NCBI RefSeq assembly: GCF_003862495.1
Contig: NZ_RRCH01000038.1
Span: 1-42,949, forward strand
Length of the DNA stretch: 42,949 bases
Direction: 5' to 3'
Source of the DNA: Halocatena pleomorpha
GTDB lineage: Archaea > Halobacteriota > Halobacteria > Halobacteriales > Haloarculaceae
Within the stretch, counting starts at the first letter, position 1. Every line of letters starts with the position of its first letter. The notes under the pieces are model-generated. The model made no database searches and had not been told where the DNA came from. It was given only the letters and a program-made list of their open reading frames with translations. A program made the translations under genes and the position numbers. Shown one piece after another: positions 17,224 through 30,919 of this stretch.

Positions 17224-18646
17224 TCACCGATTCAGCGTGTGGATCGCTTTGCCGGTCGCGTTCTCAGCGGCTTCCATGACGGCTTCCGAGAGAGTGGGGT
17301 GGGTGTGGATTGTCGCGCCCACGTCTTCGAGGGTTGCGCCCATCTCGATGGCAAGCCCCAACTCACCGATCAACTCGGAGGCTTCAGGAGCGACGACTTG
17401 GGCACCGAGGAGAAACCCACTAGGTTCGTCAGCGACGACGCGCACGAACCCGTCCGTCTCTTCGAGGGTGAGCGCGCGTCCGCTCGCGCGCATCGGCATC
17501 TGGCCGACGACCGGCTCGAATCCCTCTTCTTCGGCTTCGGCTTCGGTCAGCCCGACGGTTCCGATCTCGGGATCGGTGAACACCGCCGCCGGGACGGCTT
17601 GGTAGTCAAGCGCCGCTGGCTCGCCAGCGATCACTTCGGCCGCGACTTCTCCCTCTTTCATCCCCTTGTGGGCGAGCATCGGCTCCCCAGCCACGTCGCC
17701 AACAGCGTACACGTGATCAAGACTCGTCGCGCGCGGCTATCGGTCGGATGCATCCCGTGTCATCAGTGTCGAGATCGATCGCGTCGAGGTTCAGCGTGTC
17801 TGTGATAGGTTCACGACCGACGGCCACAAGCGCTTTTTCTGCGCTGTATTCGTCGATCTCTCCATCATCAGTCTCGGTGTGGACGGTGATTCCTCCGTCC
17901 GTCTCTTCGTAATCCTGTGCGGACTCACCGAACTGGAAATCAATGCCGAGCTGCTCGGCGCGCTTTTTCACGACGCTCGATACGTCGGATTCGTACGTCG
18001 GTAACACGTCATCGAGCATCTCGACAACCGTTACATCCGTTCCGAGTTTGGCGAACACGGTCGACAGCTCCATCCCGATGTAGCCCGCGCCGACCACGAG
18101 AAGGCTCTCCGGGATCGATTCCAGTGCAAGCGCGTGGCGCGACGTGAGGATCCGATCGCCATCGAACGTGAACCCGGGAATTTCGATGGGGCGGCTTCCG
18201 GTTGCGATGATGGCGTCTTCGAACTCGACCGATTCGCTGCCTTGGCCCTCCCCGTCGTGGATAACACGGACCGTGTTCTCGTCAGCGAATTCGGCCCGAC
18301 CCTCCAAGAGATTCACGCCGTTTGCCTTACAGAGCTTCTCGACGCCGCCCGTGAGCTGGTCAACAACATCGTCTTTCCACGCCACCATCTCACCGAGATC
18401 GACGCTGGGATCGGCGTGGATCCCCAACTCCTCGGCAGTGGCGGCTTCGTGTGCGGTGTCTGCACCAGTTACCAAGGCCTTCGATGGGATACAGCCGTGA
18501 TTGAGGCAGGTCCCACCGAGGGCGTTCGCTTCAGCAAGCGTCACATCGAGATCGAACTGTGCAGCCCGGATGGCTGCGGTGTAGCCGGCCGGACCGCCGC
18601 CGATGACCACGACGTCGGTTCCGGTTGCGATGTCTCCAACGACCAT
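17224..18646 (-). pseudogene. lpdA: Dihydrolipoamide dehydrogenase (E3), frameshifted
   Basis: E3 flavoprotein of the 2-oxoacid dehydrogenase complex, which re-oxidises dihydrolipoamide using NAD. The N-terminal part (17717-18646) has the FAD motif VVIGGGPAGY, the redox disulfide GGTCLNHGCIPSKA (Cys47, Cys52) and the NAD-site motif VGAGYIGME, and ends prematurely at 17717. The reading continues in another frame (from about 17733 to 17224) with HVYAVGDVAGEP, and the interface domain contains the catalytic THPTLSEAV. The frame change must lie within 17717-17739, which contains a CGCGCGCG run (17728-17735). Loss of one CG unit explains it exactly. It may be a true mutation, phase variation or an assembly error. 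It is the last gene of the operon, 4 bp after E2. Confidence 0.9.
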
Positions 18647-20112: not shown

Positions 20113-21114
20113 TCAGTAGTTCACGACATCTCGAATCCCATCAGCGATCCGTGTCGCTTCCGGGAGATAGTAATCTTCGAGCGCGTACAGCGGGAACGGC
20201 GTGTCGAACCCGGTGATGCGCTTGATCGGTGCCTCTTGATAGAGCAGTGCCTCCTCTTGGATGGTGGCAGTGATCTCGCCCGCAAGCCCACCGGTCTTGG
20301 GCGCTTCGTGAACAACGGCTCCCCGCCCTGTCTTCTTGAACGACTCCACGATGGTATCGGTGTCTAGCGGCGAGAGCGTCCGGAGATCGACGACTTCCAC
20401 GTCGATTTCGCCAGCGAGTTCCTCGGCGGCTTCGAGCGTCCGGTAGGCCATCGCGCCCCACGTGAACACCGATACGTCCGATCCCTCCCGACGGACCGCT
20501 GCCTCACCGAGTGGCGTGGTGTAGGTGTCGTCTGCCACCTCCTCGCGGAACGCCCGGTAGATGAGCTTCGGTTCGAGAAACACGACTGGATCCGGGTCGC
20601 GGATCGCTGACGCGAGCAGCCCTTTCGCGTCGGTCGGAGTGCTCGGTACAACGACTTTCAAGCCGGGCTCGTGGACGAAAAACGCCTCCTTGGATTCAGA
20701 GTGGTGTTCGGGCGCGCGGATCCCACCACCGTAGGGTGCGCGCACCACCATCGGACAGGAGAATCGTCCTCGTGATCGGGTGCGAAGACGCGCCGCGTGT
20801 GAGACGATCTGATCGAATGCGGGGTAGATGAACCCCATGAACTGGATTTCGGGGACCGGACGCAACCCGTACGCTGCCATCCCGATCGCGGTGCCGACGA
20901 TCCCCGATTCGGCCAGCGGCGTGTCGATAACGCGATCTCCCCCGAACTCCTCGTACAGTCCTTCAGTTGCGCGGAAGACGCCACCGTTTTTTCCGACATC
21001 TTCACCCATAACGATGACGTCTTCACTCCGCTCCATCTCGCCGTACAGCCCGTCTCGGACCGCCTGTACGAGCGTGAGATCTTCTGTAGCTGATTGTTGG
21101 TTTTGTGTACTCAT
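20113..21114 (-). CDS. pdhB: 2-oxoacid dehydrogenase E1 component, beta subunit
   Basis: A 333-residue beta chain of the thiamine-diphosphate-dependent E1 decarboxylase. The typical start TLVQAVRDGLYGEMERSEDV is followed by VMGEDVGKNGGVFRAT, then the conserved DTPLAESGIVGTAIGMA and EIQFMGFIYPAFDQ. The C-terminal transketolase domain has VEVVDLRTLSPLDTDT. The start overlaps the E1alpha stop by four bases. It forms an alpha2-beta2 tetramer with the product of the preceding gene. Confidence 0.95.
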   Translation of the reverse strand: MSTQNQQSATEDLTLVQAVRDGLYGEMERSEDVIVMGEDVGKNGGVFRATEGLYEEFGGDRVIDTPLAESGIVGTAIGMAAYGLRPVPEIQFMGFIYPAFDQIVSHAARLRTRSRGRFSCPMVVRAPYGGGIRAPEHHSESKEAFFVHEPGLKVVVPSTPTDAKGLLASAIRDPDPVVFLEPKLIYRAFREEVADDTYTTPLGEAAVRREGSDVSVFTWGAMAYRTLEAAEELAGEIDVEVVDLRTLSPLDTDTIVESFKKTGRGAVVHEAPKTGGLAGEITATIQEEALLYQEAPIKRITGFDTPFPLYALEDYYLPEATRIADGIRDVVNY

Positions 21115-22214
21115 TCCAGTAGCTCCTCATCGCCGTGTCTGTCACGAAGTCGTTCGAACGCCTCGCGCTGATCGGCCACCCGATCCGGTGTCTCAGAATG
21201 AACGTGCTCGAACATCTCCGAGGGATCGGGTCGGTCGGTGGATTCGGCTGCAGTGATCGCGTCATCAACCTCAGACTCGATCTCGGCCGTAATCGCGTCG
21301 ATGCGTTCCGCGTCGAGAAGTCCCTCGCTCCGGAGATACGCCTCGAACCGCGGGATCGGATCACGGCGCTTCCACTGTTCGACTTCGTCGTCGTCGCGGT
21401 AGACGCTCGGATCGTCCGCCGTCGTGTGCGCACCGAACCGGTACTGAACGGCTTCGATCAGCGTTGGCCGTCTGTCTTCCCCAGTTGGCTCTCGTGCTTT
21501 TTCAACGGCCGCCTCGGTCACCTGGTACACCGCGAGCGGATCCATCCCATCGACCTGAACGCCTTCAAACCCGTACGCGGTGGCTTTCTGTGCGATTGTC
21601 TGGGCCGCCGTCTGACGCTCCCGCGGGACAGAGATCGCCCACTGGTTATTGTTGCAGAAAAAGACGGACGGCGTGTCGAACACGCCTGCGAAGTTCAACC
21701 CCTCGTGGAAGTCACCTTCGCTCGTCGCACCGTCTCCGAAATAACACATGAACACGCGGTCTTCTCCCTTGAGTTTCGACGCCCACGCCATGCCCGTCGC
21801 GTGGGGAATCTGCGTTGCGATCGGAACGGTCGACGGGAAAACGGGCTGTCCGTCCATCTGGTTGCCCCGCTCGTCTCCCATCCAGTACCGAAGCGTCTCC
21901 GACAGCTCGACGCCAGAGCTATAGACACCCGCGTGTTCGCGGTAGGAGGGTATCAGCCAGTCGTCCTCCGCCAACGCGTGCACGCTCCCGACCTGTGCCC
22001 CTTCCTGTCCTGACATCGGTGGGAACGTGCCCATCCGTCCCTGTCGCTGGAGACTCACCGCTCGCTGGTCGAAGTGACGCCCGATCTTCATCTCTCGATA
22101 CATCTCGATGAGTTCGTCCTCCTCAAGTTCCGGTACCGTGGCCCCATCGCGGACACGTCCCTCTTCGTCGAGCACTTGGACGCGCTTGTCGGGGTCGCGT
22201 TGTAGCGTACTCAT
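21111..22214 (-). CDS. pdhA: 2-oxoacid dehydrogenase E1 component, alpha subunit
   Basis: A 367-residue alpha chain of E1, which binds thiamine diphosphate and decarboxylates the oxoacid. The TPP-binding motif runs from GDGATSEGDFHEGLNFA to FFCNNNQWAIS (GDG...NN). The phosphorylation-loop region YRFGAHTTADDPSVYR is the archaeal/bacterial branched-chain-like form. This is the first gene of the pdhA-pdhB-pdhC-lpdA operon. The promoter should lie in the 190 bp upstream, shared with the divergent polymerase-like gene; the best TATA candidate is weak. Confidence 0.95.
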   Translation of the reverse strand: MSTLQRDPDKRVQVLDEEGRVRDGATVPELEEDELIEMYREMKIGRHFDQRAVSLQRQGRMGTFPPMSGQEGAQVGSVHALAEDDWLIPSYREHAGVYSSGVELSETLRYWMGDERGNQMDGQPVFPSTVPIATQIPHATGMAWASKLKGEDRVFMCYFGDGATSEGDFHEGLNFAGVFDTPSVFFCNNNQWAISVPRERQTAAQTIAQKATAYGFEGVQVDGMDPLAVYQVTEAAVEKAREPTGEDRRPTLIEAVQYRFGAHTTADDPSVYRDDDEVEQWKRRDPIPRFEAYLRSEGLLDAERIDAITAEIESEVDDAITAAESTDRPDPSEMFEHVHSETPDRVADQREAFERLRDRHGDEELLE

Positions 22215-22404
22215 ACTTCCCTCTGCAGCATATACGAAACTTTCTCGCTGTCCGTATAGTGTTTTCGTAAATATCTTTCTCTCGTTGCTAATCTTGCCAT
22301 ACAGACACAGCGTGAGGCATTTCCGATCATTGTCTCGATGAGAGACGTTATCAAGTTGATTCTAAGACAAAATAATTATCTACGCTGAAAGTCACTGAGC
22401 AGTC

Positions 22405-24006
22405 ATGAGTTATACAGTAGTGCGAAACTCACTACTCTCTTTTCTCTCCGAACCGCCCGGTACTGCTTCCAAACGCGGTGTACTTCTCTCTGCGCTTTCG
22501 CTTACGGCTCTTCTCGTGGTTGTCGTTCCTGTCGTAACGCTCACAACTGGTTTCCCACTCCTCGCAGTGGTAGCCATCGCTGGCGTTGTTTATGCTAGTG
22601 GGATAGTTCTCACGGATAACCTCCTTGAAGGAATGTGTAGCGGGATCATCGTCCTCTGTACGTTTCAGGCCGAGATTCCGATCGCTGGGATCAGCCGCGG
22701 TGGTCGACTCGGGGCGTACACTGTTGAGATCATGCTGGCTGACGTCGCGGCAGTGCCGCTTGTCGTTTTGTTGGCGATGTGGTCCTCAACCCGGTTCAGA
22801 CTGCCAACCGACCGTCATGGGCGGATCGCCGTGTATGCTCTTGCCGGACTTGTCGTTTGGTCGGTAATTGCTGCTGTCGTAGGGGATGGCCCATCGACGA
22901 TGATGGGACTTTTCTTCTCGGTAGCGCAACTTCGACATCTGCTGTTGTTCGGCACCGCAATGGTTATTGGACGGTACGTTGGACTCCGAACTATCGCGTA
23001 TTCGCTGCTTATCGCGGTGAGCGGACACACGTTGTTTGCGATCGCTGAGGTGTTCAATCGAGGCTCGTTCGGTCTCAGCTATCTCGGAGAGGCAAGCGGT
23101 TACGGCTTTGAGATCTTCCATATCGGACCCATGGCGGTCACGGCCTCGACATACGCTGGTGGGTTCACCGGCATTTCACGGATTTTGATCACGCTGTTGT
23201 TTCTCGTGATGCCGGTCGCGATAGAGCGCGTTATCCGAGGATCGAACTGGCAACAGATGCTTTCTCTCGGATTTATCACTGGCGGTGTCTTTCTCCTTCG
23301 TGTCAACGCAAGTGATTCTGGATGGGCTGCGTTTTTGCTTACTGTCCTGTTGTTGTTCGGTTCGATAGTGTACATTCATCTTCGCACCAATGAGACACGG
23401 AGCGGACCGTACGACTACGCGCGCGGTTACGCTACTACTGTCGGTGCAGGTCTGCTGAGCTGTCTTCTGTTTCTCTCGAGAACATCGAGTGAGAAAGCCC
23501 CAGAGCCGAAACCAACCCCGGAACCAAAGGGCGACTCCGGGATGTTGTCTCAGGTCGATTCTGAAATGGTCGTGTCGGTTGTTGACGCTGTTCCGTTGAT
23601 AAACACGGGAAATCTCTCGATCCGTGTCCAACAGTACATTGCGGCCCTTGAGATCGGCATCACCAACCCCCTGTTCGGGATCGGTGGGATGAACTTTTCA
23701 CTCGTTGCGCAGAATTACGGCGTTCCTCGCGCGATCTCGATGCACAACGTGTATCTATCCTTTCTGGTCGGAACCGGGATACCGGGAGTGATCCTGTTCG
23801 TCACCAGCCTTCTGGCAGTGCTCTTTGTGGCGGTCAAAAACGCCATGACAGTCGATGACGAGGATCGACTGCTCTGGGCGATGATCGCCTGTGGGATGCT
23901 TGGCTTTCACGCCATCAACTTCTGGATCGCTGCGGGCGAAATCGGGAAAGTCGCGTACATGACGTTCTGGATGCTCGCTGGCGCGGTCGTCGGATCCCGG
24001 ACGTAG
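22405..24006 (+). CDS. Polytopic membrane protein, O-antigen ligase/polymerase-like
   Basis: A 533-residue integral membrane protein with about 11-12 hydrophobic segments. A large hydrophilic loop in the second half (about residues 365-430) contains a Pro/Lys-rich linker (SEKAPEPKPTPEPKGD). The segment GITNPLFGIGGMNFSLVAQ followed by ISMHNVYLSFLVGTGIPG is characteristic of the Wzy/WaaL O-antigen polymerase-ligase fold (the G-x-G and MHNVYL pattern). The likely role is polymerisation of lipid-linked glycans or their transfer to an acceptor at the outer membrane face. A TATA-like ataatta at about 22370-22376 sits 30 bp before the ATG. It is the first gene of the polysaccharide cluster. Confidence 0.78.
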   Translation: MSYTVVRNSLLSFLSEPPGTASKRGVLLSALSLTALLVVVVPVVTLTTGFPLLAVVAIAGVVYASGIVLTDNLLEGMCSGIIVLCTFQAEIPIAGISRGGRLGAYTVEIMLADVAAVPLVVLLAMWSSTRFRLPTDRHGRIAVYALAGLVVWSVIAAVVGDGPSTMMGLFFSVAQLRHLLLFGTAMVIGRYVGLRTIAYSLLIAVSGHTLFAIAEVFNRGSFGLSYLGEASGYGFEIFHIGPMAVTASTYAGGFTGISRILITLLFLVMPVAIERVIRGSNWQQMLSLGFITGGVFLLRVNASDSGWAAFLLTVLLLFGSIVYIHLRTNETRSGPYDYARGYATTVGAGLLSCLLFLSRTSSEKAPEPKPTPEPKGDSGMLSQVDSEMVVSVVDAVPLINTGNLSIRVQQYIAALEIGITNPLFGIGGMNFSLVAQNYGVPRAISMHNVYLSFLVGTGIPGVILFVTSLLAVLFVAVKNAMTVDDEDRLLWAMIACGMLGFHAINFWIAAGEIGKVAYMTFWMLAGAVVGSRT

Positions 24007-24089
24007 CCGGCCTGCAGAAACGGCTGCTTCGATCCCCAACGAAGTGTGGTCACGTGCTGTATTTGTATCTGGATGTCTGAATCCATCGT

Positions 24090-25199
24090 ATGGCCGACAT
24101 CGGAATCTATGCCCCTCGCCTCCGAACGGGAACCGATAGCGCTCCTCAGCAATGCCTCTCACATTTAATAGAACAATTCATACCTCGTGACAAGATCACA
24201 GTTACTGTCATTGGTCATGAGGATCCTGTATCCAGGCCAAAACCACTCGGTGACGTCCAGTGGTTATCTGTTCCCCGAACGCCGTGGCAGTGTGAGCGCG
24301 CGATTGATAACGCCGATTTTGATAGCGTTCTTTGGTATCGATTGACCGATAGAGTACAACCGGGATTTCTCTCGACGCCGTCTGTTCTCTGGTATCACGG
24401 CGACGAGCACTGGGAAATTCCTCACGTCGATGGCCGGGCGAAAAGTTACGCTCTGCGTGTCCTTGAAGGGTGGCGGATGATGCAGTTCGACCATGTCGTC
24501 TGTGTCTCAGACGATCTTCGACGGCGGGTTGCGGATCGGTATCCGTGGACCCCATCGACGAGTACCGTCCCAAATGGAATCGATCACGACGTGTTCACCC
24601 CCGTTGAAACGACACCACATCTCAACGGTCTTGACAGTGATACTCCGTACGTTTTCCATGTCAGCTCTTTTGATCCAAAGAAAAATCCACAGGGGGTGTT
24701 ACGATCATTCGCGCGTTTAGAGCAGGACGTACAACTCGTCGTTTGTGGCCCGGGTTGGGAATCAAACACACAGGTTCGAGAGGAGATCGATCGTCTGGGG
24801 ATTGAGTCAGAGATCCTATTTACCGGCTGGATCGAACAGCAGACGCTCGTCCAGTTGCTTTCCAATGCCGTGGCAACTGTCTTTCCATCCCTTCATGAAA
24901 CGTTCGGACTGCCAGTTCTTGAGTCGATGGCTTGTGGGACTCCTGTTGTTGCATCAGATCGGTACGCGATCCCTGAAATCGCGGGCGATGGTGCGATCCT
25001 CGTTGATCCCGAAGCTCCAGAGGAGATCGCTGCTGCTCTCGATCGGCTGATCACTGACGCAACGCGCCGTGCTGAATTAGCACGTCAAGGGCGCAAACGG
25101 GCGACCACCTTCTCGTGGCAGCACACTGCGGATCAGATGGTTAATGTCTTCGAACAAGTTATTACCACGTCCGCCACTCACGACTCCATTCTCGGCTAA
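24090..25199 (+). CDS. GT-B glycosyltransferase (family 4-like)
   Basis: A 369-residue cytoplasmic glycosyltransferase of the GT-B fold. The second Rossmann domain carries VFHVSSFDPKKNPQGVLRSF, and the retaining-enzyme E-x7-E motif is in HETFGLPVLESMACGTPVVA, with ASDRYAIPEIAGDGAILVDP after it. The first domain contains VPNGIDHDVF as expected at the hinge. The sugar donor and acceptor are unknown. It lies 84 bp after the polymerase-like gene on the same strand, probably co-transcribed, and converges on the TagF-like gene. Confidence 0.9.
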   Translation: MADIGIYAPRLRTGTDSAPQQCLSHLIEQFIPRDKITVTVIGHEDPVSRPKPLGDVQWLSVPRTPWQCERAIDNADFDSVLWYRLTDRVQPGFLSTPSVLWYHGDEHWEIPHVDGRAKSYALRVLEGWRMMQFDHVVCVSDDLRRRVADRYPWTPSTSTVPNGIDHDVFTPVETTPHLNGLDSDTPYVFHVSSFDPKKNPQGVLRSFARLEQDVQLVVCGPGWESNTQVREEIDRLGIESEILFTGWIEQQTLVQLLSNAVATVFPSLHETFGLPVLESMACGTPVVASDRYAIPEIAGDGAILVDPEAPEEIAAALDRLITDATRRAELARQGRKRATTFSWQHTADQMVNVFEQVITTSATHDSILG

Positions 25200-25250
25200 C
25201 GATTGCTTCTCTCGCCGCTCTCACCAGTAACTCGATCGATAACAGGCCGT

Positions 25251-26447
25251 TCACTCCCGAGTGGGATCGAACTGATCACAGACGGCTTCACACCGATTCG
25301 TTCCTAGCGGCTGGAGAAACTCCTCTCGAACCGCATCTCGCTCGTTAGCGAACTCGTCAGTTTCGACTACTGATTCGATGCTGGCTAGCAATTCCTCGAA
25401 CTCGGTCGCAACCGGGCCGGGCGTCACCGCGTCGTAGTTCAGATTGAACCCTCGTGTCTCACCGTACCGCTTTCGATCGAACGGATAGAAGATGACGGGT
25501 CTATCAAGCAACAAGTAATCGAAGTATAACGATGAGTAATCTGTGATCAACGCATCAACCGATGGCAACAGCGGATACACGTCTAGTGGAGAGGGCATTG
25601 AGATGATTCGCGAGTATTCTGCTCGATCGACGTCTATCTGGTCCCGTGGGTGGGGTTTGACGATGAGGTACGCGTCGATCTCGGTGAGTTTCGCGTCGAG
25701 TTCCGACAGATCGAGATGCTCCCCGACGTGCTCGCCCGTTTCCTCGTGGAACGTGGGAGCATACAGGAACACGTTGCTCTCCTTATGACGTTCAGCCGCC
25801 ATTTCGTAGATGTCCGCTTTGGCTTCGATTCGTTCGTCCGGAAACGTCCCGTCGAGAAGATCGTTTCTCGGATACCCTGTGACGACGACCCGCGATGGAT
25901 CCATGTTCCGACCGGACGCAAACGGTTCGACCATCGCTTCACTCGTGACGGTCAACCGGTCGAATTGCTTGAAGAGGGCGTATTTGCCCCGCTCAATTGG
26001 TCCAACAATGGGGTGATCGATCTGTCGATGAGCATCCCATTCGACCTGCTTCAGCATGATTCCGTGCCACAACCCAACAATTGTTGTGCCACCAGCACAC
26101 CACACGTTCACATCCCGTGTACCGTGACTCACGTATGCGACGCTCGCTCGGAGGCTCGCGTACGTTCCACGGAACGAGTCGGCATGGTACGCCTCGTGTC
26201 CTTGTGATTGTAGTGTCTCGACCACTGACTCGTTTCTCGACAGCCACACCGCCCGAACGTTCGGGCGTTCTTCGACTGTGTGAAGATACAGATACTTCGA
26301 ATTGTCAACGAACGCCGACCCCTCTTTGGCACCAAACACCCACAGTGTTTCGTCTTTTGGCCAAACGAACGAAAGTACGTACAGTAACCCGAACCAAAGG
26401 TACGTCAGACCAGCACTCACCCGAGACACTACTCCGGTAGAATCCAT
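25251..26447 (-). CDS. CDP-glycerol glycerophosphotransferase (TagB/TagF)-like transferase
   Basis: A 398-residue protein with an N-terminal hydrophobic stretch (about residues 12-30), then the Tag-family core. Landmarks are [52 protein letters not shown] and [21 protein letters not shown] (DYSS). In bacteria these enzymes add polyol phosphate from CDP-glycerol or CDP-ribitol to wall teichoic acid. Here the acceptor is unknown but probably a surface glycan. It is 12 bp downstream of the nucleotidyltransferase, so the two are an operon: one activates a phospho-alcohol, the other transfers it (inference). Confidence 0.86.
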
Positions 26448-26459
26448 ATCGTTTCCCCG

Positions 26460-27212
26460 TTACTCGACTGTGAGCCGTCCGCAGATATTCTTTGCTTTTG
26501 ATAGGTCTTCTTCGGTGTCGATCTCGATCCATGGGCCATCCGTTTCCACGAATCCAACGCTTACATCGTTGAACAGGAGATCGAATGCCCCTTCGTACCA
26601 CCCGTTGACTTTGTCCTGCTCGATGAAGTCTCCGATGTGCTTGAACAGCACGCTCGCGTCTTCGGCGGTGAACTTCGAGAGACCGATGTACTCGGCGTCT
26701 CCCTCGTCGAGATCCTTGCCAATGGTTTCGATGTTATCACCGTCGAACGCTACCACCATCTCCTCGCCCGTTTGTTCGGTTTCCGGATCAACAAGGAGAG
26801 CGCTCCCGTCGTGTTGCTGTAATTTCGAAAGGCTCTTTGTCGGAAATAAGGTATCGGAATTTATCAGCGTAAATCCATTTTGGGCGTCGTCCCGCGCCAA
26901 CCACAACGAATAGATGTTGTTGGTTGAGTCGAACCGCTCGCTGTGAACGAATTCGATCTCCAGTGATTCTCGGGATCGACAGTGGTCTCTAATCTGCTCG
27001 CTTTCGAACCCCGTCACGACGACGACTCGCTCGTATCCGTTCGCTTCGAGTGCTTGGAGGATGTGTTCGAGGATCGCCTGCCCACCGACGTCCAGTAGCG
27101 TCTTGGGTGTATTGTCGGTTAGTGGTTGGAGTCGTCGCCCCTGACCGGCAGCGAGAATGATCGCCTGTGTACTCGGATCCCCACCGAGACCATCTGCACG
27201 ATGGCTATTCAT
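26460..27212 (-). CDS. Sugar/phospho-alcohol nucleotidyltransferase, LicC-like
   Basis: A 250-residue nucleotidyltransferase of the GT-A-like NTP_transferase family. The signature is ILAAGQGRRLQPLTDNTPKTLL (Gly-rich loop about residues 20-28, Lys37), then an INSDTLFP metal-binding segment. The C-terminal part (EYIGLSKFTAEDA, INGWYEGAF-type segment and DGPWIEIDTEEDLSKA) resembles LicC phosphocholine cytidylyltransferases and IspD/glycerol-3-phosphate relatives more than RmlA. It therefore probably makes a CDP- or NDP-activated alcohol for the downstream TagF-like transferase. A TATA-like ttaatat lies about 27 bp upstream on the minus strand (27236-27244). Confidence 0.82.
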   Translation of the reverse strand: MNSHRADGLGGDPSTQAIILAAGQGRRLQPLTDNTPKTLLDVGGQAILEHILQALEANGYERVVVVTGFESEQIRDHCRSRESLEIEFVHSERFDSTNNIYSLWLARDDAQNGFTLINSDTLFPTKSLSKLQQHDGSALLVDPETEQTGEEMVVAFDGDNIETIGKDLDEGDAEYIGLSKFTAEDASVLFKHIGDFIEQDKVNGWYEGAFDLLFNDVSVGFVETDGPWIEIDTEEDLSKAKNICGRLTVE

Positions 27213-27439
27213 GGATGGATTTGTATCAACGGTACATATTAACGCTTGGATTCTATTACAGGAAGATTCTATATATTCAGAATTAACGTATCACTGGGAA
27301 TTTAGGTGACAATCAAAAACGCCCTCTCTGTCGTCTTTCGTTCCGTGATAGCGCTCAAGATGCTATATTTTAAGGCTTGCTCACACACCAACAATGGAAT
27401 AACGAAACGGTATTGTACTTCAATCATCAGCATTACCAC

Positions 27440-28390
27440 GTGTCTCCCTCACCAACTCGCTGGTTCCGAAAACGGATCCGATACGGCTATGAAGAGTGGC
27501 AAAAGAACGGACTTGCGGGTGCTCGAGAGGGGGCAGTGACTACGTGGAGGGCGGCGTTCCACGAACTGAATGAACAGTACATTCGTCGAATCGGGAACCC
27601 TGGTCACTCAATTTACGAACGCGAGTGGGATGTTCTCGTCGTGTTAGACGCGTGCCGAGTCGATCTCCTCCGGGAGGTTGCCGACGAATACGACTTTCTC
27701 GGTGAGATAGAGACGTTCTATTCGATCGCAAGCAAATCGTCCACGTGGATGGAGCGCAATTTCAAGGGCGAATACACGGAGAAGACGGCCAGTACCGCCT
27801 ACGTGACTGGTAATCCGTTTTCGAGGATGTTTTCAGGATCGGAATTCGCGTATTTCGATGAGGTCTGGCGGTATGCATGGGATGATGAGCTCCATACGAT
27901 CCCAGCACGGCCGTTAACCGATTCGGCGATCGACGTCTGGCGCAACGAATCCGTAGACCAAATGATCGTCCACTACATGCAACCTCACGTCCCGTTCGTG
28001 ACCGAACCGGAGCTAGGATCATACAAGGGTCCTGAGGACTTCGGTGATGGGTTCAATGATCTCTGGGATCAAGCCGGATACACGCTCTCAGCGGATCGTG
28101 TGTGGAACGCCTATCGGGACAACCTCCAATACGTGCTTGATGACGTCGAGTTGCTCCTAGAGAACCTCGATGCAAACCGAGTCGTGATCTCTGCTGATCA
28201 CGCCAACGCCTTCGGTGAGTTTGGATTTTGGGGTCATCCATCTTACATGCTGCTTCCCTCTATTAGGCAAGTGCCATGGAGCGTAACGACTGGGGTGGAC
28301 AATGGCGAATACGAGCCGACGATCGATCGCGTCGAAGAGATTGACGACGACGCGGTGACCGACCGACTTCGGGATCTGGGATACGTATAA
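27440..28390 (+). CDS. Alkaline-phosphatase-superfamily (sulfatase-like) protein
   Basis: A protein of about 316 residues of the AlkP/sulfatase superfamily, which cleaves or transfers phosphate or sulfate esters. The metal-binding start is VLVVLDACRVDLLRE (Asp about 70). A candidate nucleophile sits in ASKSSTWMERNF. HYMQPHVPF and VISADHANAFGEFGFWGHP supply the later His/Asp ligands. No clear signal peptide or membrane anchor is visible. The start is uncertain: there is no in-frame ATG, and a TATA-like tatatttta at 27364-27372 rules out the TTG at 27377, so I use GTG 27440 (TTG 27413 is an alternative). In this cluster it may modify or transfer phosphate groups of the surface polymer. Confidence 0.75.
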   Translation: MSPSPTRWFRKRIRYGYEEWQKNGLAGAREGAVTTWRAAFHELNEQYIRRIGNPGHSIYEREWDVLVVLDACRVDLLREVADEYDFLGEIETFYSIASKSSTWMERNFKGEYTEKTASTAYVTGNPFSRMFSGSEFAYFDEVWRYAWDDELHTIPARPLTDSAIDVWRNESVDQMIVHYMQPHVPFVTEPELGSYKGPEDFGDGFNDLWDQAGYTLSADRVWNAYRDNLQYVLDDVELLLENLDANRVVISADHANAFGEFGFWGHPSYMLLPSIRQVPWSVTTGVDNGEYEPTIDRVEEIDDDAVTDRLRDLGYV

Positions 28391-28471
28391 GTCACACACG
28401 ACCCAGTTGTTGCACCGTCAAGATCGAAACGAAAAAGATAATCAACAGGTCTCACTCACGTTCACGTACAG

Positions 28472-29983
28472 ATGCCGTCTCGCTCTGATTCTGGCCTTTA
28501 TTCCTCGCTTCGATCGGTGACGCGTGGTGCATCAGTGTTCGCGGTCGGGTCTGGGCTCAGCAAGGCGCTCGGATTCGTGTTTCAGCTGTTGTTGACCCGA
28601 GGATTGGGTGCTGAACTGTACGGTATCTACACGTATGGGTTCACGATCGCCATGTTCATTGTCAATTTCGCCGATCTCGGGACGAGCAAGGCGATTTTGA
28701 AGTTCGTCCCTCTGTATGAGGACGATCCCCGCAAGCAGAATCGACTGCTTGGTCTCGCGTCTCTGACCTCTCTTGGGGGAAGCGTCCTGTTAGGTGGAGG
28801 GGTGTACGTCTCTGCTCCCACGATAACTGAGCTGACGCTGAACAATCCGCTGCTCACCGACGTTTTGCGGCTCTTTGCTGTCTTCATCGTGTTCTATACA
28901 CTCATTAGAATCGTCAGCAGCGTGTTCCAGAGTGTTGAACGCCAAGCGTACAAGATGCTTTTAGAGAATGTCACTACACAGACGATCCGGATTCTCTTCG
29001 CCGGCATCGCGCTTGTCGTCGGGGCGTCCGTCGTCGGCGTTACGGCTGCCATCATCGTCGGGACCGTCCTGACATTCGGGATTGCAGCCGTGGTGTTTCT
29101 CTCTCGTACCTCATTCCATCCGACGCTTGGCGGCTCACGCGGAGACATTCGGGAGTTTTACGATGTCTCACTTCCACTGACGTTTTCGGATGTCGGACGG
29201 TTACTGTACCGACGGATCGACGTGTTGATGGTCGGATTTTTGCTTTCTGCGGGCAGTCGTGTTGGCGTCTACAACATCGCAACCGTACTCGCAAGCCTGC
29301 TCCGACTCCCACTCACCGGTTTTAATCAGCTGTTTCCTCCAATCGCCTCGCGGCTGTATTCGAACGGAGAGATCGAGGAACTCCAATCAGTGTACACGAT
29401 GGTGACCAGATGGACGTTCACGGTCTCGTTGCTTCCTGCGGCCGCCACGATCGTCTACGCGGAGGAACTGCTCGGGGTATTCGGGAACGCGTTCACTGCT
29501 GGTGTCACCGTGCTTCTATTGTTCGTCCTCGGTGAGCTGATGAACGCCCTCGCCGGTCCGAGCAATTACATGCTGATAATGACTGACCACCAGTACGTAT
29601 CGATGGTCAACGAGTGGGCGCTCGGCGTGTTCAACGTCGTTCTCAACTACCTGTTCATCAGCCGGTTCGGTCTCGTCGGTGCTGCGCTTGCGACGGTGAG
29701 TGTCCTGTCGGTGATCAACCTTGTCCGTGTCGTGGAGGTGTGGTATCTCGAAGGATTGATGCCGTATTCGCTGAAATTCTTCAAGCCGATTCTTGCCGGC
29801 CTCGGTGCCGGCGCTGTGATGTATGGCCTGAAAACGTTCCTTTCTGGATATCCCCTGCTCGTCATCGGTGGGGTTGTCGGCGGAATCGTCTTCGCGCTTG
29901 GATTGTTCGCACTCGGAATCGAACAAGAGGATAAGGAGTTTTTCGTCGAATCGATCCCTGCACTCGAATCCGTGTTGCCCTGA
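28472..29983 (+). CDS. Wzx-like polysaccharide flippase (MOP superfamily)
   Basis: A 503-residue membrane protein with about 12-14 hydrophobic segments. The N-terminus GASVFAVGSGLSKALGFVFQ, then LTRGLGAELYGIYTYGF, is characteristic of RfbX/Wzx/MVF-type exporters. It should flip a lipid-linked glycan across the membrane for polymerisation or ligation. The start is well defined (MPSRSDSGLYSS). A TATA-like agataat lies about 30 bp upstream at 28434-28442. It ends 3 bp from the convergent end of lipA. Confidence 0.9.
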   Translation: MPSRSDSGLYSSLRSVTRGASVFAVGSGLSKALGFVFQLLLTRGLGAELYGIYTYGFTIAMFIVNFADLGTSKAILKFVPLYEDDPRKQNRLLGLASLTSLGGSVLLGGGVYVSAPTITELTLNNPLLTDVLRLFAVFIVFYTLIRIVSSVFQSVERQAYKMLLENVTTQTIRILFAGIALVVGASVVGVTAAIIVGTVLTFGIAAVVFLSRTSFHPTLGGSRGDIREFYDVSLPLTFSDVGRLLYRRIDVLMVGFLLSAGSRVGVYNIATVLASLLRLPLTGFNQLFPPIASRLYSNGEIEELQSVYTMVTRWTFTVSLLPAAATIVYAEELLGVFGNAFTAGVTVLLLFVLGELMNALAGPSNYMLIMTDHQYVSMVNEWALGVFNVVLNYLFISRFGLVGAALATVSVLSVINLVRVVEVWYLEGLMPYSLKFFKPILAGLGAGAVMYGLKTFLSGYPLLVIGGVVGGIVFALGLFALGIEQEDKEFFVESIPALESVLP

Positions 29984-29986
29984 GCG

Positions 29987-30919
29987 TTACTCCGCGTCGA
30001 CGCCAGCAGTCCGTCTGGCCGCTTCAACGGATTTCCCTTCGCGGAGAACGGCTTCAACGAACAGCTCACCAGCACGATAGGACGACCGCACAAGCGGGCC
30101 GCTCGCACAGTAGAGAAATCCGAACTCCTCGTGTGCTATCTGTTGCCATGTCGAAAACTTGTCTGGATGAACATGCTCGCTCACTTCGAGGTGGCTTCGA
30201 GACGGTTGGAGATACTGACCGAACGTCACGATATCGACACCGATCTCGCGGAGATCGCCCATCGTCTGGTAGATCTCGTGGTCGTACTCTCCGATACCGA
30301 GCATGAGCGATGTCTTGGTATGGATATCGGATGTCTCACTCACCTGTTCAAGCACAGACAACGACTGTTCATAGCCAGCCCGCCGATCCCGAACCGGCCA
30401 CTGGAGCCGTTCGACCGTCTCGATGTTGTGGGCGATCACATCCGGCTCGGCGTCGATGATCTTCTCGACGCAGTCGGATTCTCCGCGGAAGTCGGGAACG
30501 AGTACTTCGACCACCGTCTCGGGGTGGTGAGTTTTGATCTCCTCGATCGTTCGAGCGAAATGTCCAGCTCCCTGATCAGGGAGATCATCCCGGTCGACGG
30601 AGGTGAGAACGACGTACTCCAATCCGATCTCCGCGATCGCGCTGGCGACGTTCGCCGGCTCATCTGGATCGAGCGGCTCCATTCCTCCGGTCTTCACGTC
30701 ACAGAAGTTACATCCCCGTGAGCACCGATCACCCATGAGCATGATCGTCGCGGTCCCTGGTCCCTCGCGGCCGCTCCAACACTCACCCAGATTCGGACAG
30801 TTTGCCTCCTCACACACCGTGTGGAGATCGTGATCTCGGAGCACCTGTTTGATCTCAGTGAAGCGCCGACCCGACGGCGGACGCATCTTCAACCAATCGG
30901 GCTTGCGCGCGCGACTCAT
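29987..30919 (-). CDS. lipA: Lipoyl synthase
   Basis: A 310-residue radical-SAM enzyme that inserts two sulfurs into octanoylated E2 lysines to make lipoate. The auxiliary cluster CEEANCPNLGEC (Cys36, Cys41, Cys47) and the radical-SAM cluster CSRGCNFC (Cys66, Cys70, Cys73) are both intact. The closing serine motif is in RSSYRAGE. It supplies the cofactor for E2 at 18651-20096, encoded on the same strand. A minus-strand TATA-like ttttaat at about 30942-30950 gives a leaderless start. No lipoate ligase or octanoyltransferase gene is adjacent. Confidence 0.97.
   Translation of the reverse strand: MSRARKPDWLKMRPPSGRRFTEIKQVLRDHDLHTVCEEANCPNLGECWSGREGPGTATIMLMGDRCSRGCNFCDVKTGGMEPLDPDEPANVASAIAEIGLEYVVLTSVDRDDLPDQGAGHFARTIEEIKTHHPETVVEVLVPDFRGESDCVEKIIDAEPDVIAHNIETVERLQWPVRDRRAGYEQSLSVLEQVSETSDIHTKTSLMLGIGEYDHEIYQTMGDLREIGVDIVTFGQYLQPSRSHLEVSEHVHPDKFSTWQQIAHEEFGFLYCASGPLVRSSYRAGELFVEAVLREGKSVEAARRTAGVDAE

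Follow-up and report, generated by a model that had tools for sequence, protein, structure and literature searches.

The bacterial TagF/TarF/TagB family, part of the Tag/Tar teichoic acid biosynthesis machinery that also includes the glycerol-3-phosphate cytidylyltransferase TagD, is represented among solved proteins by TagF of Staphylococcus epidermidis (PDB 3l7i), in which the histidines H444 and H584 both have catalytic roles according to passages of PMC11666461 and, likewise, of PMC5974469. The same transferase domain occurs in the capsule polymerases Bcs3 and Cps3D and in the transition transferase Cps7A, and TagF-like capsule enzymes put polyol phosphate on a glycan, as described in part of PMC11666461. 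In archaea, a bioinformatic annotation of the methanogen Methanobrevibacter ruminantium M1 lists both tagF and tagD (part of PMC7772410), a likeness to the present case by annotation and not by sequence comparison. We examined a window of 42,949 nucleotides, the whole contig NZ_RRCH01000038.1 (C32) of the draft genome of Halocatena pleomorpha (completeness 96.59%), in which a TagF-like transferase and a LicC-like nucleotidyltransferase lie within a six-gene cassette. We consider it likely that the six genes specify a small surface glycan pathway of the Wzx/Wzy type that includes a phosphodiester-transfer step dependent on a cytidine diphosphate (CDP)-alcohol. A similar arrangement is found on the Halorussus aquaticus plasmid NZ_CP100401.1 (147885-149921), where an NTP transferase and a PF04464 protein, already annotated as belonging to the CDP-glycerol glycerophosphotransferase family, are adjacent among glycosyltransferases, as in the cassette. 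Unlike the cassette, that locus (L180, 140653-157777) carries an ABC ATPase and two polysaccharide lyases, and AlkP, Wzx and Wzy are not named beside the pair.

The TagF-like protein (25251..26447, minus strand; 398 amino acids, aa) matches PF04464 (Glyphos_transf) at E=2e-62, its score of 211.7 bits exceeding the cut-off of 22.1. Profile A1, made from 24 relatives, found S. epidermidis TagF as the top PDB sequence (E=1.2e-50), followed by TarL, Bcs3 (1.5e-34) and Cps3D (2.6e-29). In the profile alignment to 3l7i, H128 and H266 correspond to H444 and H584, positions at which the PDB sequences 3l7j and 3l7m read N and A. W127, H128 and G129, K264 and H266 (K-x-H), and Y304, S305 and S306 are invariant in all 24 proteins, so that both histidines and the WHG and TDYSS motifs are shared with the bacterial family, and the predicted catalytic residues are intact. 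According to part of PMC11666461, TagF and TagF-like glycerol-phosphate polymerases have the motif WHG, and hexose-phosphate transferases have QHG. The archaeal protein differs from TagF in having a single catalytic domain, preceded by a borderline hydrophobic stretch at residues 10-28 (Kyte-Doolittle hydropathy, KD19, 1.71), and is probably membrane-associated. Its length is close to the TarF and TarB models (388 and 362 aa), compared with 583 aa for TarL, 729 aa for TagF and 1149-1173 aa for the multi-domain solved polymerases Bcs3 and Cps3D, beside which the cassette enzyme is a stand-alone transferase. Because it is single-domain, a decorating transferase working with Wzx and Wzy fits better than a polymerase of the TagF kind.

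The LicC-like gene (26460..27212, minus strand; 250 aa) is on the same strand as the TagF-like gene with a gap of 12 bp, and the two probably form one operon, as had been proposed when only the letters of the window were read. Its product, matched by NTP_transf_3/NTP_transferase, was extended to a profile of 15 relatives (A2), which ranked LicC first in the PDB (1jyk, E=3.1e-30), then PntC-AEPT (6pd1, 3.1e-21) and the inositol-1-phosphate cytidylyltransferase IPCT (2xme, 2.1e-18). The alignment to these three closest solved sequences is nearly full-length, with NNxYSLxLx common to LicC, and the motifs TNNxYSLWLA and WYE are invariant in the 15 relatives. A structural model (predicted local distance difference test, pLDDT, 89.5) matched PntC best, with Z 30.4 (root-mean-square deviation, rmsd, 2.0; 234 residues aligned). 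Identity to this group of enzymes by structure is 24-26%, and a further difference from them is the TagF-like partner. No TagD was found above cut-off in the organism's own genome (TIGR01518, 27.5 vs 165.4 bits; genome 96.59% complete), so the LicC-like enzyme is the likely source of the CDP-alcohol, a partner unlike the TagD of the bacterial pathway. The top fold score of PntC raised a phosphonate route through cytidine monophosphate-aminoethylphosphonate (CMP-AEP); this was rejected as unlikely because the own genome holds no phosphoenolpyruvate (PEP) mutase above cut-off (best 97.6 vs 319.55 bits), although in a draft genome absence is not proof. We presume that the LicC-like protein is a CTP (cytidine triphosphate):phospho-alcohol cytidylyltransferase.

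We then found that the pairing of the two genes recurs across the class. Of 391 class genomes, 55 had a strong PF04464 match (E<=1e-28) and 47, from 22 of 86 genera, had an A2 match (E<=1e-30); every one of these 47, the genomes with a close LicC relative, is also among the 55. When the 15 genomes used to build A2 were left out, the co-occurrence was 32 of 32, with 40 of 376 genomes positive (hypergeometric P=3e-39, kinship not corrected). Gene order was compared in 56 loci from 53 other genomes of the class, each locus covering at most 20 kb around a strong PF04464 match; a second match in G304 and two fragments in G129 were strong places outside this set. In 44 of the 56 loci, the best TagF-like open reading frame (ORF) has a LicC-like ORF, defined by a phmmer score of at least 30 bits to the LicC-like protein of the cassette, no more than 3 kb away, and in 42 of them the two share a strand. 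In G024 and G147 the pair is divided between contigs, and the distance between the two genes is 27 kb in G106 and 15 kb in G099. Thirty of the 85 PF04464-positive genomes, with matches only weaker than 1e-28, were set aside, as these are probably other GT-B proteins. This survey supports a pairing that is not due to chance, with the LicC-type enzyme dedicated to the TagF-like transferase, and the dedicated pairing argues against a nucleotidyltransferase unrelated to the TagF-like enzyme, which the sequence-only reading had named as a case that would refute it. Two loci, L060 and L086, have three PF04464 places each together with GT4-like and Wzx-like genes, and recall multi-step bacterial teichoic acid or capsule clusters.

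The whole cassette (22215..29986) lies between pdhA (21111-22214) and lipA (29987-30919) and consists of, in order, Wzy-like, GT4, TagF-like, LicC-like, AlkP-fold and Wzx-like genes. The genes that flank the pair agree with the polymerase-like, glycosyltransferase and Wzx-like functions first assigned to them: a Wzy/O-antigen-ligase-like membrane protein (22405..24006, plus strand; 533 aa, 10 hydrophobic segments; PF04932 Wzy_C, E=3.8e-12, 46.7 bits against a cut-off of 31.7), a GT4-type glycosyltransferase (24090..25199, plus strand; 369 aa; PF00534, E=1e-37) and a Wzx-like flippase (28472..29983, plus strand; 503 aa, 10 hydrophobic segments; Polysacc_synt PF01943, E=2e-28). The guanine-cytosine (GC) content of the cassette is 53.7%, against 59.2% and 59.6% in the flanks. 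Among seven same-genus genomes (G000, G360, G392, G183, G393, G277 and G391, the locus of the last not being among the stretches compared), the cassette is present in G000, G360 and G392, and the site is empty in G183 and G393, where pdhA and lipA are ~0.2 kb apart. Five of the genes are kept in unchanged order in G360 and G392, with 70-91% protein identity, plus a GT4; G392 has ~1.7 kb extra between pdhA and lipA. The GT4 is the sole cassette gene exchanged, at the same place, for a different GT4 in two same-genus relatives (L052, 34% identity over 103 aa; L174, 27% over 183 aa). The rate of nonsynonymous substitution (dN) is well under the synonymous rate (dS) for the TagF-like, LicC-like, Wzx and Wzy genes, with dN/dS of about 0.07-0.17 for the first two. 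Given its presence or absence as a unit in five genus genomes, its low GC and dN below dS, the cassette behaves as a selected and exchangeable unit. Elsewhere on the contig, a dihydrolipoyl dehydrogenase gene (17224-18646, minus strand) is broken into two ORFs of 309 and 162 aa, which together correspond to one intact 474-aa protein in the same-genus locus L052, indicating a frameshift or an assembly error.

Two architectures of the pair were observed. Type A, that of this cassette, has a single-domain LicC-like protein of about 245 aa, and type B combines the TagF-like gene with a GDPD glycerophosphodiesterase (PF03009, E=5.9e-30 in L042) and a LicC-like domain fused to a HAD-IIA phosphatase. 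The fusion was recognised by Pfam in five loci (L035, L045, L051, L057 and L063), and the remaining 18 loci with HAD have a LicC-like ORF of 507-573 aa. GDPD and HAD occur together in 22 of the 56 loci (L035, L040-L042, L044, L050, L051, L056, L057, L059, L061-L067, L070, L072, L075, L078 and L080), and HAD occurs without GDPD only in L045. Because a glycerophosphodiesterase adjoins the pair, glycerophosphate chemistry is suggested for type B and, by kinship, for type A. In some type B loci no relative of this cassette's GT4, Wzx or Wzy was found, and the type B unit possibly makes a separate polymer or a soluble glycerophospho compound. Some type B loci adjoin housekeeping genes, such as those for an Obg-like GTPase and succinyl-CoA ligase.

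In a tree of TagF-like proteins, one node (support 0.16) held 16 type A and 23 type B proteins, five other haloarchaeal proteins and one from a euryarchaeal metagenome-assembled genome (MAG); type B proteins and three others formed one clade with support of 0.99. Since 13 further haloarchaeal proteins fell outside that node, more than one origin of the haloarchaeal TagF-like proteins is likely. A single-sequence scan of genome contigs confirmed no relative. The best 80 of 590 relatives from an alignment scan were mostly bacterial, plus Halovivax asiaticus and three euryarchaeal MAGs, and in a minority of the loci of these 80 a LicC-like gene lies near the TagF-like gene, for example in L089 and L130, so the pairing exists in bacteria too. 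These two loci are from bacterial MAGs (Zixiibacteriota and Sedimentisphaerales), and have the LicC-like gene directly upstream of the TagF-like gene, a layout as in the cassette.

The sixth gene, an AlkP-superfamily ORF (27377..28390, plus strand), is divergently adjacent to the LicC-like gene, as it had been placed at the outset, with 164 bp between them given a TTG start. Its true start is uncertain because the same-genus copy in G360 has a stop in the aligned N-terminal part. The Pfam Sulfatase match was under the curated cut-off (17.1 vs 25 bits); the model (pLDDT 84.7) has an alkaline-phosphatase fold, with EptA (Z 15.3, rmsd 3.1, 200 aligned) and a sulfatase (Z 15.0, rmsd 4.6, 209 aligned) tied as best matches. 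All 15 relatives keep D91, D274, H275 and H287 and carry Ser or Thr at position 121; from the superfamily, we take the Asp and His residues to be metal ligands and Ser/Thr121 the nucleophile. Compared with L174, dN is 0.107 and dS 1.07. With the protein as a single query, the best relatives outside the genus (G324, G209, G253 and G238; 57-60% identity) adjoin TagF-like genes, and the next (G240 and G040; 54-55%) are from genomes without a PF04464 match. In 10 of the 56 loci an AlkP-like ORF lies at most 3 kb from the best TagF-like ORF. Profile A3 found the family in 340 of the 391 class genomes (E<=1e-40), a spread that rules the enzyme out as a dedicated partner and is a weak point of the pathway proposed below. 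LtaS/OpgB-type phosphoglycerol transferases are membrane-anchored with an extracellular catalytic domain. The AlkP-fold protein had no hydrophobic segment (none over KD 1.6, maximum 0.97), and because it is also generic, extracellular phosphoglycerol chemistry of the LtaS type is unlikely; this weakens the suggestion that AlkP-type phosphoglycerol chemistry belongs to the system. The protein looks active and may perform some phosphate or sulfate ester chemistry.

In the pathway that we propose, the LicC-like enzyme would convert a phosphorylated alcohol and CTP to a CDP-alcohol, and the TagF-like enzyme, working at the inner face of the membrane, would pass the alcohol-phosphate from CDP to a hydroxyl on a lipid-linked oligosaccharide that the GT4 helps to build. 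By family, the Wzx-like protein would flip the unit and the Wzy-like protein would polymerise or ligate it outside; on the cytoplasmic side, the AlkP-fold enzyme might trim or transfer phosphate or sulfate groups. The pathway would yield a polysaccharide that has polyol phosphate attached to it or inserted in its chain, and a poly(glycerol phosphate) chain is not required. The alcohol phosphate is most likely glycerol phosphate, with inositol phosphate and amino-alcohol phosphate as alternatives, and it is probably sn-glycerol-1-phosphate, which we favour because archaea make it as a lipid precursor. Passages of PMC8262930 describe archaeal production of glycerol-1-phosphate and an as-yet-unidentified glycerol-phosphate cytidylyltransferase activity in lysates of Archaeoglobus fulgidus.

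A number of results weigh against this proposal. The structure comparison of the LicC-like protein was divided: PntC came first, yet LicC (Z 28.1, rmsd 2.0, 226 aligned) tied with the UDP-glucose pyrophosphorylase UGPase (5j49; Z 28.1, rmsd 2.2, 233 aligned), so the fold alone leaves the substrate unsettled. The active-site comparison of the TagF-like protein gave matching histidines, but its motif reads WHGIM where TagF has WHGTP, and the glycerol-phosphate transferase Cps7A has Tyr at the first His position (part of PMC11666461), so WHG is neither strict nor proof. A close LicC relative is lacking from eight of the 55 genomes with a strong TagF-like match, and 12 of the 56 loci have no LicC-like gene within 3 kb; two of the eight, G209 and G253 (L034 and L039), have a diverged nucleotidyltransferase at most 1.8 kb away (30 and 36 bits). 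The pairs of L036, L038 and L048 adjoin short-chain dehydrogenase/reductase (SDR), acyl-CoA dehydrogenase or aminotransferase genes, and no relative of the cassette's GT4, Wzx or Wzy was found among their partly annotated neighbours. Finally, in the same-genus genome G277, lipA was found and pdhA was absent from the 17.7 kb examined on that side.

We weighed three other explanations against these data. The tie with UGPase would suit an ordinary sugar-nucleotide pathway, in which a GlmU/AglF-type sugar-1-phosphate enzyme and a diverged GT-B protein make a normal glycan, and Arch_glmU and AglF were indeed the best NCBIfam matches. Both were far under cut-off, however, LicC, PntC and IPCT rank first by sequence profile, the TagF histidine pair and WHG are invariant, and a general sugar nucleotidyltransferase would not be expected to occur with a TagF-like gene in 47 of 47 genomes; we judge this pathway very improbable. 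The teichoic-acid-like system proposed in the sequence-only reading stood in part, in that a LicC-type enzyme is dedicated to a TagF-like enzyme with intact residues in a glycan cassette. The polymer itself, a poly(polyol phosphate) made by the TagF-like enzyme with AlkP-type phosphoglycerol chemistry, agrees with TagF as the closest solved relative and with type B loci that lack a relative of the cassette's Wzx or Wzy, but it over-reads a one-domain protein that is near TarF/TarB in length, well short of TagF and the solved polymerases, and that sits beside its own Wzx and Wzy with a generic AlkP protein free of hydrophobic segments. This version is improbable, if less so than the sugar-nucleotide one.

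A third alternative, unlikely though less so than these two, has the two enzymes make and transfer an alcohol phosphate other than that of glycerol, through a CDP-choline/ethanolamine-like compound or CDP-inositol, and yields a glycan with phosphocholine-like or phosphoinositol groups in place of a teichoic-acid-like polyol. It overlaps the proposed pathway, which allows for several alcohols, so the likelihoods of the two are not exclusive. LicC, a phosphocholine enzyme, is the top PDB match of the nucleotidyltransferase, PntC (aminoethylphosphonate) and the archaeal IPCT follow, and the invariant TNNxYSLWLA and WYE motifs point the same way. On the other hand, the transferase is TagF-like with the WHG of glycerol-phosphate polymerases, GDPD occurs in type B loci, and the lack of a PEP mutase above cut-off in the own genome makes the phosphonate form unlikely. 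Returning to the Wzx/Wzy-type pathway with glycerol phosphate as the favoured substituent, a more specific form can be put forward tentatively: the LicC-like protein may be an archaeal CTP:sn-glycerol-1-phosphate cytidylyltransferase, whose CDP-sn-1-glycerol would build glycerol-phosphate surface glycans in type A and type B alike. This form is possible, though doubtful as it stands.

What sets this case apart is that CDP-alcohol phosphotransfer of the bacterial type is predicted within a Wzx/Wzy cassette of an archaeon, together with a LicC-type enzyme dedicated to it; archaeal tagF annotation is already precedented. Among open-licence PMC papers, no paper on haloarchaeal TagF-like genes or glycerol-phosphate glycans was found by title or abstract. 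The surface glycans of archaea are best known for their sulfate and uronic acids. A patchy, genetically defined phosphodiester module would bring to them a polyanion chemistry regarded as bacterial, and would test whether archaea build phosphodiester glycans from glycerol-1-phosphate. The LicC-like family is a candidate for a glycerol-phosphate cytidylyltransferase activity of this kind in haloarchaea, and if it does act on sn-glycerol-1-phosphate, the resulting glycerol-phosphate glycans would be opposite in stereochemistry to the teichoic acids that bacteria make from CDP-glycerol.

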